From Pseudomonas sp. FP2196 (GTDB taxonomy: Bacteria > Pseudomonadota > Gammaproteobacteria > Pseudomonadales > Pseudomonadaceae): a stretch of DNA of 64,000 bases. Below the pieces are notes generated by a model, which was not told the DNA's origin, ran no database searches, and was given only the letters and a program-made list of their open reading frames with translations. The position numbers were made by a program, and so were the translations under genes. The first letter of the stretch is position 1. Every line of letters begins with the position of its first letter. Below, piece by piece: positions 43,254 to 47,669 of this stretch. The stretch spans positions 2,965,501-3,029,500 of the forward strand of contig NZ_CP117445.1 in the NCBI RefSeq assembly GCF_030687715.1. Direction: 5' to 3'.

Positions 43254-43357
43254 AGCAGGAGGGAATATCGGCGATAATCGTCGATATTCATTTAACTACA
43301 CTAAATGAGCGTTTAGTTGAGCTAACAAAAAAATCCTCTAAATCAACGGAGCAGGCC
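43254..43357. promoter_or_regulatory. Symmetry elements between TonB receptor and cupin genes
   Basis: AATATCG (43264-43270) faces CGATATT (43282-43288), and ACTAAA (43300-43305) faces TTTAGT (43312-43317). The first may end the receptor transcript and the second may be an operator of the cupin gene. No stronger signal is visible. Confidence 0.35.
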
Positions 43358-43873
43358 ATGACTCAGCACAAACCAAACGCACAAGATCTGATTTCTGCGC
43401 TGAATCTGGAGCCACACGTTGAAGGAGGCTATTTTCGCAGGACCTATCAAGCCGACCATCGAGATCTCCTGCAAACCGATAACGGGCCACGCTACCTGAT
43501 GACGTCGATTTACTATCTGCTGACCGAGCAATCGCCCGTGGGCCAGTTTCATTTCAACCAGTCCGACATCCTGCATTATTTCCATTCAGGCGACGCCATC
43601 GAGTACAGCCTGATTCTGGCGGACGGCTCATTGCAGACGCTGGTGATGGGCAGCGATGTTTTGGCAGAACAACATTTGCAATTGCACGTACCGGGCGGAA
43701 TCTGGAAAGCTTCGCGACTACTAGAAGGATCGAACGGATTTGGCTTGATCAGCGAAGCCGTTTCACCAGGATTTGATTTCGCCGATATGCAGATGGGGAA
43801 CAGACTGAAACTCACGGCACAATTTCCACAGCATCGCGCGTTGATCGAAAAGCTGACGAGGGATCAGGATTGA
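43358..43873 (+). CDS. Cupin_5 (DUF985) family protein
   Basis: The 171-residue single-domain cupin begins QDLISALNLEPHVEGGYFRRTY, the characteristic opening of DUF985. It has the cupin strands FHFNQSDILHYFHSGDAIEYSLI and LLEGSNGFGLISEAVSPGFDFADMQMG. Members are sugar-epimerase-like beta barrels of unknown substrate. It follows GGAG and is transcribed away from the receptor gene. No operon partner is seen. Confidence 0.88.
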   Translation: MTQHKPNAQDLISALNLEPHVEGGYFRRTYQADHRDLLQTDNGPRYLMTSIYYLLTEQSPVGQFHFNQSDILHYFHSGDAIEYSLILADGSLQTLVMGSDVLAEQHLQLHVPGGIWKASRLLEGSNGFGLISEAVSPGFDFADMQMGNRLKLTAQFPQHRALIEKLTRDQD

Positions 43874-44229
43874 GAGTGGCAGATTTCAAGAGCTGCCAAG
43901 GCTTAAAGGAAAGCGGCTTCAGAGTGAGTACTGGAGATTCATGCTGTGTGTGTCGGTGCTAATCCTGAAACACTTTGTTACGTGTAATGTATATTATGTT
44001 AAATAAGGTGCTATGTCAGGGTGGAACTTTCTATACTTGTGCTTGAGGTCACGCGCCACCACTTTCCGATTTTTGCAGACGTTCAGGCTCTTCTCGTTGG
44101 ACGTCCTTCCTGACTTCGGTCCCTGATGTATGCAAGAAACTTTTGCCCCGTCTGTACAAGAACTCCAGCCAGATATACAGATATCGCTTTTGAGGCGTTC
44201 AAGCACGCCTCATCGATACAGCCGAGCGT
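43874..44229. other. Intergenic, A+T-rich boundary of the accessory region
   Basis: This 356-base gap separates the cupin gene from the unknown 772-residue gene. It holds no credible gene; a 70-codon open frame on the complement over 43994-44206 looks like chance. A TGGCAG/CTGCCA hairpin (43877-43898) follows the cupin stop. No repeat of the tRNA-Lys 3' end was found here, so an attachment-site copy is not visible. Confidence 0.5.
44191..44212 (-). terminator. Hairpin downstream of the unknown 772-residue gene
   Basis: TGAGGCG and CGCCTCA pair around an eight-base loop, 18 bases after the stop codon on the complement. No U tract follows on that strand, so it is only a possible terminator. 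Confidence 0.4.
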
Positions 44230-46548
44230 TTAACTGATGTCATTCGTTTGCGGCGGTAACAACCAATGTCGTTCGGTGGTCCATCCGAGAAAAACCTGAA
44301 CCCCCTCACTTTTCCGGCGGTTCAGGGTCAACGGGAGCCCGGAAGCTGCCACACGCAACCCCATAATTGCCGGTAGAAATCTCTCTCGGAATGCAATGGG
44401 TTGAGCCGCGAAATGAGCTTCGATGCTATCGATTGCGCAACGCCTCTCGGCGTCATCCTGCATGGATAAATAAAACACCATCTGGCGCCAGGCATAAGCG
44501 GTATTTTTGAGCATCACCAAGCTAGAGTGATAGAGCTTGATTTTCATCTGCTGCCGCATGCATATCCATTGGAAGCACTGCTGAGCAAGTGAGCCCAAGC
44601 GATGATGTAGCAGCGCTTTCAAACCGAGATCACCAAATAGAAGCGAAAGGTTTTGCGTCGTCAAAATCTGTTGTTGCTCGATGATCCTGCCGTTGGTTGC
44701 TGAATGCCATCCACCCAAGGTTGCATTAGCCCGCTGTGCGCACAGGTTCGCCAATGCATCACTGGTTTCCAAGTCACGCTGGAAATAGTTTCTGCTCTTT
44801 GATTTCGGCTTATCGGGAAGGATCGCCAGTTGGTTCGTGTCGATGTCGTAATAATGGGCGTAAAGGGTGCCATCTATCAACGAGGCTGCTCGCCTGGCTG
44901 CTTCCACGAATTTATTCGAAAAGGTTCCCATGAAAATGTCCGCCGCGACCTCCTCCACAAAAGGAAGATCCAGCTTCGCCGTGACAGCAAGCGAACCAAA
45001 CTCCTGAAGTAGCTTGTTCGGAAGGATTGCCTGAGGGAAAGCAGCGAGGGTTGTTGCCGAGGATTCGATCAAGGCTTGTCTGGCTCCCTCAACGGCGACA
45101 GTGTGTGCCTTTCGTTCACCTTCAACGGCCGCCACCCAAGGCAACTCACTGATTTTGACTTGGCTCTGTAGGTTGAGCAGCAGCAATGAACGGCGTCGCC
45201 GAAAAGCACGATACGTTGCGATAGACAACGTGCGCAGTGTCGTATCGCGAAATCCAGCACTGCAGATTTCGGCCGTCATCGCTGGCAGTACTCGCGCCAC
45301 GGTATCCCCAGATGTGATCAATCCCTTGTCAATCAACTGACTGATGGATCCCTTTCGACAGCGCTCGAGGCGTCGGCGAACTGCTGGTGGAATGGCGACA
45401 CCGGTTTTCAGCGAATGTGCCTTCGCCTCCTCATTGGTAATCGGTTCCAACAGGGACGAAAAATCAGAGATGCCTTCCGAGCTCGTATAGCTGGTCAGAC
45501 GCTCAGAAACCGCCTTGGCGATCAGATGATGCTCGGGCGCGGCCACCTGATGGCGCTGTATGGCTCGGCTCTGTAGATGATCTTCGGATTCGGGATGACC
45601 ATGTTTGCACACGAAATCATTGACGATCCGCCGAATACGTCCGACTTGACGCCCTGTCAGCGAGATTGGGTCACGGGAGCAGAGCCTTAGCAACGCGTAC
45701 AACTCCCCTACCCGGCCCCTGAAAGGTTCAACGTTGAGGATGTCATTGCTACCGGAGGCATCGAACTGACTACTTAGCGCATTCGCCTGCTCAAGCCAGC
45801 CTTCAGGATATTGCCGACAAGGCCAATCATCCTGGTACGTTAAGAGGAAGAGCGAGATAGCTGCATCGTAGAAAGGCAACCGGGTCACGACCACATGTTT
45901 TTGCACCGCAAGACGCTGCTGCGCAGGGAGTTTTGAAAGCAGCTTTTTGATATCGCCGACATCGAAGATCTGCACTTCCACCGCCGCGAGCGGTAGCCCG
46001 TCAGAAGCCATTGGAAAGAAACGCAGTTGCTCAAAAAAAGGTGCGATCGACTCAATCAGTCTGCGTGCTTCCTCCATGCGCTGCTGTCCCAACAGCCAAG
46101 CCACGTACAGTAGCGCTGCCTCTTCTGGTACATCGATCCGATAGTCGCTGTTCACCAGTTGCTTTTGCAGTGCTTCGATCCCCTCATCCGTAAGGTGCCA
46201 GGTGTTGAGATCAAGTCGTTCAAAACCAGGGCGGATGCCTGGGATTGAGGCGGCCAGCCGCCGTTCGTACTCGGTCAGTGCACCACCGGCCAGATACTGT
46301 CCAGTGGCAAGACCACCCGTGACTACCTCCAGTGTGACCCATTCAGGCACATCCACGAGTGGTATACGCGAGCCATACAGCGCGGTGCCCTGCACCATGT
46401 GTTCGACCACCTGCTGCCAGCGCTCAATTCGTTCACGCGCTTTCTCAGTGTCTAGACCCGATGCGGTCAATGCTCGAGATAACTGAAAGACCGCATAACC
46501 GGCGTTTATGCCGGCCACTGCATCCAATTCCCTATCGTGCCTGGACAT
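44230..46548 (-). CDS. Unassigned 772-residue protein directly behind tRNA-Lys
   Basis: I do not recognise the function. The protein is soluble by eye, with no signal peptide, no membrane helix and no evident nucleotide-binding loop or nuclease motif. The N-terminal third is helical and repeat-like (WQQVVEHM, ALYGSRIPLVDVPEWVTLEVVTGG, AALLYVAWLLGQQRMEEARRL). The middle has a basic stretch, AVRRRLERCRKGSISQLI...YRAFRRRRSLLLLNL. The C-terminal part has NGRIIEQQQILTTQNLSLLF and MLKNTAYAWRQMVFYL. The start follows AAGGA closely and overlaps a 12-base palindrome. It lies 25 bases behind the tRNA on the same strand and is more A+T rich than the flanking core genes, so horizontal gain is likely. A solitary defence or mobile-element protein is one speculation. 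Confidence 0.85.
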   Translation of the reverse strand: MSRHDRELDAVAGINAGYAVFQLSRALTASGLDTEKARERIERWQQVVEHMVQGTALYGSRIPLVDVPEWVTLEVVTGGLATGQYLAGGALTEYERRLAASIPGIRPGFERLDLNTWHLTDEGIEALQKQLVNSDYRIDVPEEAALLYVAWLLGQQRMEEARRLIESIAPFFEQLRFFPMASDGLPLAAVEVQIFDVGDIKKLLSKLPAQQRLAVQKHVVVTRLPFYDAAISLFLLTYQDDWPCRQYPEGWLEQANALSSQFDASGSNDILNVEPFRGRVGELYALLRLCSRDPISLTGRQVGRIRRIVNDFVCKHGHPESEDHLQSRAIQRHQVAAPEHHLIAKAVSERLTSYTSSEGISDFSSLLEPITNEEAKAHSLKTGVAIPPAVRRRLERCRKGSISQLIDKGLITSGDTVARVLPAMTAEICSAGFRDTTLRTLSIATYRAFRRRRSLLLLNLQSQVKISELPWVAAVEGERKAHTVAVEGARQALIESSATTLAAFPQAILPNKLLQEFGSLAVTAKLDLPFVEEVAADIFMGTFSNKFVEAARRAASLIDGTLYAHYYDIDTNQLAILPDKPKSKSRNYFQRDLETSDALANLCAQRANATLGGWHSATNGRIIEQQQILTTQNLSLLFGDLGLKALLHHRLGSLAQQCFQWICMRQQMKIKLYHSSLVMLKNTAYAWRQMVFYLSMQDDAERRCAIDSIEAHFAAQPIAFRERFLPAIMGLRVAASGLPLTLNRRKSEGVQVFLGWTTERHWLLPPQTNDIS

Positions 46549-46554
46549 ATGTCC
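46543..46554. promoter_or_regulatory. 12-bp palindrome over the start codon of the unknown gene
   Basis: GGACATATGTCC is a perfect palindrome that includes the ATG (46546-46548 on the complement). It could be an operator for autoregulation or a chance match around a ribosome-binding site. Confidence 0.3.
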
Positions 46555-46573
46555 TTCTGACCCTGCGATGTAT

Positions 46574-46648
46574 TGGGTCCGGGGGCTGGATTCGAACCAG
46601 CGCCCACCCGGTTAAGAGCCGAGTGTTCTACCGCTGAACTACCCCGGA
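46574..46648 (-). tRNA. tRNA-Lys (anticodon CTT)
   Basis: The complement folds as a complete cloverleaf. The acceptor stem is TCCGGGG/CCCCGGA, the D arm is GTTC/GAAC, the anticodon stem is CTCGG/CCGGG with loop CTCTTAA (anticodon CTT, 46614-46616), and the T arm is GCTGG TTCGAAT CCAGC. The gene encodes the CCA end. The base before CCA is C, which is unusual for lysine (normally A). It may therefore be a minor or diverged tRNA. It marks the right edge of the unknown 772-residue gene. Confidence 0.88.
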
Positions 46649-46793
46649 ACAGAGCGCACATTGTCTACTCGCAACGAACGAATGTGAAGACTGAAAACGT
46701 TGCCGCTCGTGACGCATACAGAGATTACTCCCGTTCGAAAATATTGGTGTAACTTCCTACAGGGCTTCGCGCGCTGCTTCACGACTGCGCGCC

Positions 46794-47585
46794 GGCGGCC
46801 TCAAGCCTGATGCGCAACCGTGGATCGTGGCCATTGAAAAACCCTGCCGGGGTGTGCGCGAAGTCATGGGCGTGATGGAACTCAGCGATGCCGCCATCGC
46901 AACGTCGGGGGACTATCGACAGTGGGTCGATATAGGTGGGCAGACCTACGCCCATACCATGAACCCGGTCACCGGCGCGCCACTGCGCAACTCATTGACG
47001 GCGGTCAGCGTGGTGGCGGCCTCATGCATGCTCGCCGATGCGTGGGCCACGGCGCTGCTGGTGCTGGGGGAAATCGAAGGCCCACGGTTGGCTCAGAAAC
47101 GCGGGATGGACGCGTTCACCGAGCGGGCTGACTTGGCGCGGGAACGCGCCGAACTGGCCAACGATCCAAAGGCGGAACACATTGAACTGGCGAACATTTA
47201 CATCCAGCGCGGCGTATCGCCCGAACTGGCTCATCAAGTGGCCGATCAATTGATGGCCCATGATGCGCTGGGGTCCCACGCGCGGGACGAACTGGGCATC
47301 AGCGAAACTCTCACGGCCAAACCGTTGCAGGCTGCCCTCGCCTCGGCCGCCAGTTTCGTGGTCGGCGCAGCGTTGCCGCTGGCAGTAACTTTCATCGCGC
47401 CCACAGACAGCGTTGTGCCTTGGATTTGCGGCATGTCACTGGTCTTCCTCGGCAGCCTGGGGGCCGTTGCAGCCAGGGCCGGGGGTGCCAGTGTAGTGAT
47501 CGGTGCCTGGCGCGTGACGCTATGGGGCGTGCTGGCCATGGGCATCACGGCGTTGGTGGGATCACTGTTCGGAGCTGTGGTTTAG
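46794..47585 (+). pseudogene. In-frame chimera of an ApbE C-terminal part and a VIT1-family C-terminal part
   Basis: Codons from about 46794 to 47107 encode the C-terminal half of an ApbE FAD:protein FMN transferase (VMELSDAAIATSGDYRQW, TYAHTMNPVTGAPL, AASCMLADAWATALLVLG). The frame then continues without a stop as the C-terminal two thirds of a VIT1/CCC1 iron or manganese transporter (FTERADLARERAELANDP, GVSPELAHQVADQLMAHDALG, then three helices). The ApbE start and the first VIT helices are missing. A deletion that joined two neighbouring genes explains this. The open frame can begin at a GTG (46827), but no good ribosome-binding site is seen, so a product is doubtful. Confidence 0.8.
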
Positions 47586-47669
47586 AACGCCGCCGCTTGA
47601 GCAACATCAACAAACGTCCACTTCAAATGGATTAACTTGACCTGACTTTCGCTGACCCAAGGATTCCCC

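Follow-up and report, generated by a model that had tools for sequence, protein, structure and literature searches.

Introduction

In type III toxin–antitoxin systems such as ToxIN, an RNA gene composed of a repeat array is followed by a protein gene, and the distribution of these systems is patchy. Another pairing of protein and RNA is known from Salmonella, where Rsr/Ro60 is found with Y RNA in the rsr-yrlBA-rtcBA operon (PMC7790460). The cleavage treated in that article lies, according to one of its section headings, mostly within the anticodon loop, and its passages on YrlA describe the tRNA-like domain of this RNA as itself not cleaved by the nuclease concerned. Furthermore, tRNAs with non-canonical structures are described as allo-tRNA and selC* tRNAs (PMC7609411).

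In this study, we analyzed a stretch of 64,000 nucleotides (hereafter the window) from the genome of Pseudomonas sp. FP2196 (6.24 Mb, single contig), in which a gene for a protein of 772 residues lies directly downstream of a tRNA-shaped RNA gene. Comparison with relatives shows the two to form a two-part module whose RNA has a conserved frame, a changing anticodon and an odd discriminator base. Like Rsr/Ro60 and its Y RNA in the sections of PMC7790460 that deal with them, the module combines a protein with a small RNA of its own that mimics tRNA and can stand beside RtcBA; at a locus from Undibacterium (L063), it shares a cluster with a Ro60-type gene. In contrast, profile comparison of the module protein with 14 Rsr sequences gave a probability of 0.2%, and no TROVE or vWA match was found by Pfam in 23 diverse members (E 0.01). 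YrlA is described in the same sections as containing a tRNA-like domain, whereas the module has a complete tRNA whose anticodon is exchangeable. The module also lies in or beside genes of the RtcR-RtcB-RtcA and Hen1-Pnkp repair systems at 5/80 loci; however, no such neighbour was found at the other 75, and the protein matches none of the known parts of these systems (Pfam). ToxIN resembles the module in its order of RNA gene and protein gene and in its patchy occurrence, but the module protein has no ToxN-like match and a tRNA shape takes the place of the repeat array. The allo-tRNA and selC* tRNAs are likewise bacterial tRNAs that deviate from the standard, in part with altered anticodons; in contrast to the module, the available text of PMC7609411 mentions no large helical partner and does not contain the word “operon”.

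A large gene without assignable protein family

The protein gene, delimited by ORF calling, occupies 44,230–46,548 on the minus strand. It reads from an ATG at 46,548 down to 44,230 and comprises 772 codons with zero internal stops, in agreement with the sequence-only reading of this DNA, which had reported a large intact gene; its end coordinate of 46,554 lay six bases beyond the true 46,548. The same reading had correctly placed the gene on the strand of a tRNA-Lys(CTT), with 25 bases (46,549–46,573) between the tRNA and the gene start, and its statement that no motif could be placed was borne out. No usable family match was obtained for the 772-aa protein in Pfam, NCBIfam, PADLOC or PHROGs, and none of 23 diverse relatives gave a Pfam match at E 0.01. 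The protein showed neither a synthetase-like match nor a match to a nuclease or other toxin family, and its best hits among the PADLOC 2023 defence models (E 0.0099 and 0.06) covered short stretches that do not represent a real match. The AlphaFold2 model (pLDDT 84.1, pTM 0.77) is all-helical and yielded no clear fold match.

A single-sequence search detected 795 relatives at E ≤0.001 among 8000 candidates scored, and a profile search detected 792. Among the matches listed, the readable names are hypothetical or uncharacterised protein, and most lengths lie between 750 and 810 residues; the closest named relative among the fetched loci belongs to Pseudomonas simiae CCUG 50988 (98% identity). 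Based on record titles, the family extends over Pseudomonadota, Actinomycetota, Planctomycetota, Acidobacteriota, Verrucomicrobiota, Myxococcota and other phyla. The contigs carrying relatives are mostly of the chromosome type, plus six plasmid records, and searches of phage records and viral contigs gave no relatives.

The G+C content of the gene, calculated in 500-base windows, ranges between 0.50 and 0.57, compared to 0.56–0.62 at 39.0–43.2 kb and 0.59–0.65 at 46.7–48.7 kb, so the gene is richer in A+T than these two stretches, as had been noted from the sequence alone. Just past its 3′ end, at 43.0–44.2 kb, the G+C content is lower still (0.47–0.50). Decayed genes had also been suspected on the far side of the tRNA. 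The ORF at 46,827–47,585, in which the C-terminus of ApbE is followed by the C-terminus of VIT1 (Pfam), fits this view and is probably a product of decay or deletion. Of the flanking ORFs, two were analyzed by Pfam (Cupin_5; ApbE/VIT1), and neither encodes an integrase; no direct repeat of the tRNA end of ≥14 bases was found in 43,300–47,600.

A tRNA-shaped RNA travels with the gene

The oddity of the gene lies in its tRNA. ARAGORN calls a tRNA-Lys(CTT) at 46,574–46,648 (minus strand), which takes in discriminator C73 and an encoded CCA; the body of the tRNA-shaped RNA comprises 71 bases (46,578–46,648) and is defined by ARAGORN, by Rfam RF00005 (67.9 bits) and by covariation. Across 54 distinct sequences, 99.6% of the paired cells in the arms are standard pairs, and two-sided changes occur in 14/21 pairs, a value matched by 0/500 shuffles. 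The elbow of D-loop and T-loop covaries as well: GG is found together with T55 in 62 cases, absence of GG with G55 in 8 and absence of GG with T55 in 2. On these comparative grounds, the RNA frame of arms and elbow is evidently under selection to stay tRNA-shaped.

A locus scan with one genome per species gave 377 loci with relatives of the protein, of which the best 80 were analyzed. In 72/80 of them, the protein gene is preceded by a tRNA-shaped gene of the same orientation (69 detected by ARAGORN; L064, L071 and L073 by a structural scan in which scores ≥24 were accepted and misses scored 18–20). Because it recurs in 72 of the 80 fetched relatives, the arrangement of gene and tRNA is more than chance. 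Two plasmid-borne relatives from Streptomyces (L087) and Curtobacterium (L088, 30% identity) both have the tRNA shape upstream, two copies differing in their loops occur at six loci, and ARAGORN gives two tRNA copies in L084, too. The eight misses comprise L032, whose contig starts with the gene, and seven loci that make up two neighbouring clades in the protein tree (L046, L052, L057, L062, L066, L068 and L078). A search for a scaffold copy elsewhere in these seven tRNA-less genomes found none, a weak negative given that the pattern recovered 2/3 positive controls and missed L063.

Among 398 Pseudomonas genomes, the protein is encoded at full length in 17, with an internal deletion in one (G033) and as short fragments in two (G228 and G176). 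Patchy presence, which the sequence-only reading had named as a sign to look for, was thus found, with 17 full-length genes and fragments in three more genomes. The scaffold pattern, which leaves the anticodon open and allows ≤3 mismatches, so that diverged copies could be missed, occurs in 18/398 genomes, once each and always directly upstream of the gene: in the 17 with the full-length protein and in G033. It is absent from the 378 genomes in which no match to the protein was obtained. At the G033 locus (L005/L006), the tRNA and both gene ends are kept and the middle of the protein gene is deleted. These distributions argue strongly that the tRNA belongs to the protein gene and that the pair is inherited or moved as a unit.

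A promoter-like block, TTCACA-17-GACAAT (46,660–46,688, minus strand), was recognised by comparison of Pseudomonas sequences. It is present in 20/23 of them (the window and 22 loci) with a spacer of 17–18 bases and the identical distance of 11 bases to the tRNA, one of the 20 having TGCACA for TTCACA; the exceptions are L010 and L011 (TTCACA with AACAAT) and L017 (TTCACT and AACAAT). Since the TTCACA-like and GACAAT boxes stop 11 bases short of the tRNA 5′ end, they suggest that the transcript starts at the tRNA, from this block. The 25-base spacer between tRNA and gene (46,549–46,573, minus strand) contains, by eye, a Shine-Dalgarno-like AAGGA. In some distant members, e.g. L058, L080 and L085, the tRNA ends within ~10 bases of the start codon (by eye). 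The palindrome GGACATATGTCC at the start of the window gene, for which an operator function had been considered, is kept in only one (L007) of nine relatives whose start region was inspected and is therefore unlike a conserved operator.

Variable anticodon loop and discriminator base

In the window, comparison with relatives places the anticodon loop CTCTTAA at 46,612–46,618 (minus strand), with the anticodon CTT at 46,616–46,614; positions 34–37 are hypervariable among relatives. The 65 seven-base loops, including that of the window, contain 21 anticodons, and eight further loci have six-base loops. All seven-base loops begin with C32 T33 (65/65), followed by the four variable positions and by A38 in 61/65. 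For two-copy loci, one copy was used for these counts and for the tree. Changes were counted on a quick protein tree, computed without bootstrap, of 74/80 loci and the window (75 rows, 67 with tRNA); for the six loci outside it, ORF picking gave no protein over 500 residues. On this tree, the anticodon state changes at least 35 times, with all six-base loops treated as one state. Loop positions 34, 35, 36 and 37 change 14, 21, 17 and 15 times, compared to 0 at positions 32 and 33, 2 at position 38 and 0 to 9 at stem positions. The unpaired positions 16, 20, 26 and 59 (our own numbering) change 13, 14, 16 and 16 times. Judged by these counts, the anticodon loop varies about as much as the least constrained tRNA positions, or more, and could simply be unconstrained. 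Shifts of the anticodon occur between proteins that are still 60–70% identical; in one pair of loci (L008 and L014), the upstream sequence is near-identical and the tRNAs differ at position 35 alone.

The variation nevertheless has an order. A34 is absent from all 65 seven-base loops and from all 27 distinct loops on the tree, and G37 accompanies G36 in all 11 tree rows having G36. Avoidance of A34 and a G37 after every G36 resemble the rules of decoding loops. Because A34 never occurs and G36 is always found with G37, the loop variation is, by these patterns, not random.

The discriminator base differs from that of most host tRNAs. Among the 72 loci with a scan match out of 82, N73 is C 49 times, T 20 times and G 3 times but never A, so that 69/72 module RNAs have a pyrimidine whatever the anticodon. 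In contrast, A is found in 38, G in 19, T in 7 and C in 3 of 67 tRNAs from the genome that contains the window. A pyrimidine at position 73 would be expected to hinder most synthetases. The CCA is encoded in 42/72 module RNAs. Judged by its discriminator base, the module RNA is probably not normally charged. We also considered the window tRNA as an ordinary host tRNA-Lys(CTT). The genome has Lys-TTT and no Lys-CTT besides the module tRNA, both host Lys-TTT tRNAs have A73 whereas the window RNA has C73, and among the 398 Pseudomonas genomes the scaffold, at ≤3 mismatches, is found only with the protein or its remnant; this candidate was rejected.

RNA-repair genes and other neighbours

No gene besides the tRNA is widely common to distant loci. 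Near and far ORF sets were compiled without the Pseudomonas loci, L032, L039, L043 and ORFs of <120 residues. Pfam analysis of the 110 closest of 232 near ORFs listed RtcB, RtcA, Pnkp and Hen1 among 165 families; PADLOC enrichment near the module was not visible (68 families in 110 near ORFs vs. 82 in 110 far ORFs).

RNA-repair genes adjoin the module at 5/80 loci, which cover three phyla and two unrelated repair chemistries. They were assigned by Pfam, and further ones were sought by BLAST with the proteins found. In Undibacterium (L063), the order is RtcR, a Ro60-type vWA protein, RtcB, RtcA, DUF6847, tRNA, protein and a second RtcB; in Chloracidobacterium (L036), RtcR, an ORF without known function, an intein-containing RtcB, RtcA, tRNA and protein follow each other. 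An intein splicing domain lies within the RtcB gene of this repair cluster (L036:6735–8684). In a tRNA-less locus from Planctomycetaceae (L046), RtcB is directly downstream of the protein. The two remaining loci belong to the second chemistry: Hen1, an ORF without known function, Pnkp, tRNA and protein all on one strand in Phycisphaeraceae (L075), and, in a member of Planctomycetota (L044), two tRNAs and the protein oriented divergently to a group of Pnkp, Thg1, a kinase-like ORF, RlaP and Hen1. BLAST found no RNA-repair gene at the other 75/80 loci, some of which have short flanks; an ambiguous match of 101 residues to the intein-bearing RtcB turned up in L068. Two Massilia loci (L072 and L082) have a gene for an EF-G-like translation factor, recognised by a motif and its sequence start, ~3 kb upstream of the module on the same strand.

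The five repair-adjacent loci compare to 0.37 expected (Poisson P 4.5e-5), a value that is post hoc, as one and the same set of loci served to notice and to test the pattern. The expectation assumes evenly spread repair genes, with gene fragments counted apart, and was derived from 50 carrier genomes (51 chosen, L082 left out), of which 44 contain RtcB and 15 contain PNKP_ligase. Within Pseudomonas, the association of RtcB with the module is not significant (10/17 genomes with the module and 164/381 without; Fisher P 0.22). The window's own genome gave no RtcB match, and no RNA-repair gene lies beside the window's locus.

Discussion

The tRNA shape, the odd discriminator, the shifting anticodon, the dedicated protein and the repair genes at five loci are most simply read as belonging to an RNA that serves as bait, decoy or sensor. 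With a probability of roughly 45%, we consider the pair to be an RNA–protein module of a tRNA-damage response, with a probably uncharged tRNA as bait, decoy or sensor for anticodon nucleases. The protein would grip the constant arms of the RNA and leave the anticodon loop exposed. Normally uncharged, the RNA would be the bait, decoy or damage sensor for ribotoxins or anticodon nucleases that attack such loops, and its anticodon would shift as these attackers shift. Where RtcR/RtcBA or Hen1-Pnkp stand alongside, the module may feed a repair response; elsewhere, including the window's genome, it would act without neighbouring repair genes. Binding of the RNA by the protein, its uncharged state and its action as bait or decoy are steps that we infer. 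If the analogy holds at all, the uncleaved tRNA-like domain of YrlA, as described in the relevant passages of PMC7790460, leans towards a decoy rather than a cleaved bait. More tentatively, the pair may represent a guide- or bait-like innate system, in which the constant tRNA frame, bound by its helical partner, carries an exchangeable anticodon head of three to four bases that sets the recognised anticodon nuclease (or codon or tRNA-binding factor) and which is coupled to RNA repair in several lineages.

Other readings explain part of the observations. The protein might be a toxin, which for instance binds or damages tRNAs, and the tRNA-shaped RNA an antitoxin that neutralises it by mimicry. 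A compact two-gene unit with the RNA first, its patchy occurrence on mostly chromosome-type contigs and six plasmid records, and the kept RNA next to the internally deleted protein gene of G033 would suit such a pair; addiction modules may keep an antitoxin in this way. However, the protein has no nuclease or toxin family and no clear fold match, seven members have no RNA, and a change of anticodon between proteins 60–70% identical would be left unexplained, which makes this reading rather unlikely. We regard it as unlikely, too, that the tRNA shape is a cis-acting leader, i.e. the binding site of the protein in its own mRNA for autoregulation, with an uncontacted anticodon that drifts. This would agree with an RNA end within ~10 bases of the start codon in L058, L080 and L085 and with a loop that changes about as often as positions 16, 20, 26 and 59; it does not account for the decoding-like absence of A34 and constant company of G36 and G37, for a promoter-like block positioned for transcription from the tRNA onwards, for a CCA encoded in 42/72 members, or for the six loci with two copies and different loops.

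Canonical arms in most members, the encoded CCA and loops that mostly obey decoding rules could also point to a working tRNA, charged for translation or as an aminoacyl donor to the protein, whose anticodon is free as charging ignores it. In this case, one would have to explain the pyrimidine N73 in 69/72 RNAs whatever the anticodon, unlike most host tRNAs, six-base anticodon loops in 8 loci, the replacement of T55 by G55 in 8/72 and a protein without synthetase-like match, and we consider it quite improbable. The sequence-only reading had viewed the gene as mobile cargo lodged at a host tRNA-Lys attachment site. Although patchy presence and the deviating composition of the gene speak for this idea, the tRNA is outside the host's common set and varies in its anticodon from relative to relative, neither a direct repeat of the tRNA end in 43,300–47,600 nor an integrase among the two flanking ORFs tested was found, and the absence of the scaffold from 378 Pseudomonas genomes without a protein match contradicts it; we therefore give it very little credence. 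An integration site at a host tRNA does not hold, as the scaffold travels with the gene, the anticodon changes and the host otherwise has Lys-TTT only. Of the defence or mobile-element function proposed from the sequence alone, the mobile cargo at a tRNA site thus falls away, whereas a defence-like role, in the wide sense of an RNA-damage response, is possible for other reasons.

The bait, decoy or sensor reading concerns a pair that is spread over many phyla but easy to miss, because its RNA counts as an ordinary tRNA in ARAGORN and the named protein entries are hypothetical or uncharacterised. We know of no described role for a tRNA that keeps its frame, changes its anticodon and has an odd discriminator, although an earlier description is possible. 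The module is widespread, carries no name in the libraries searched and is testable. If the RNA is indeed a bait, decoy or sensor, the pair would give directly testable access to the sensing of tRNA damage by bacteria, and some of the tRNAs counted in censuses may play no part in translation.
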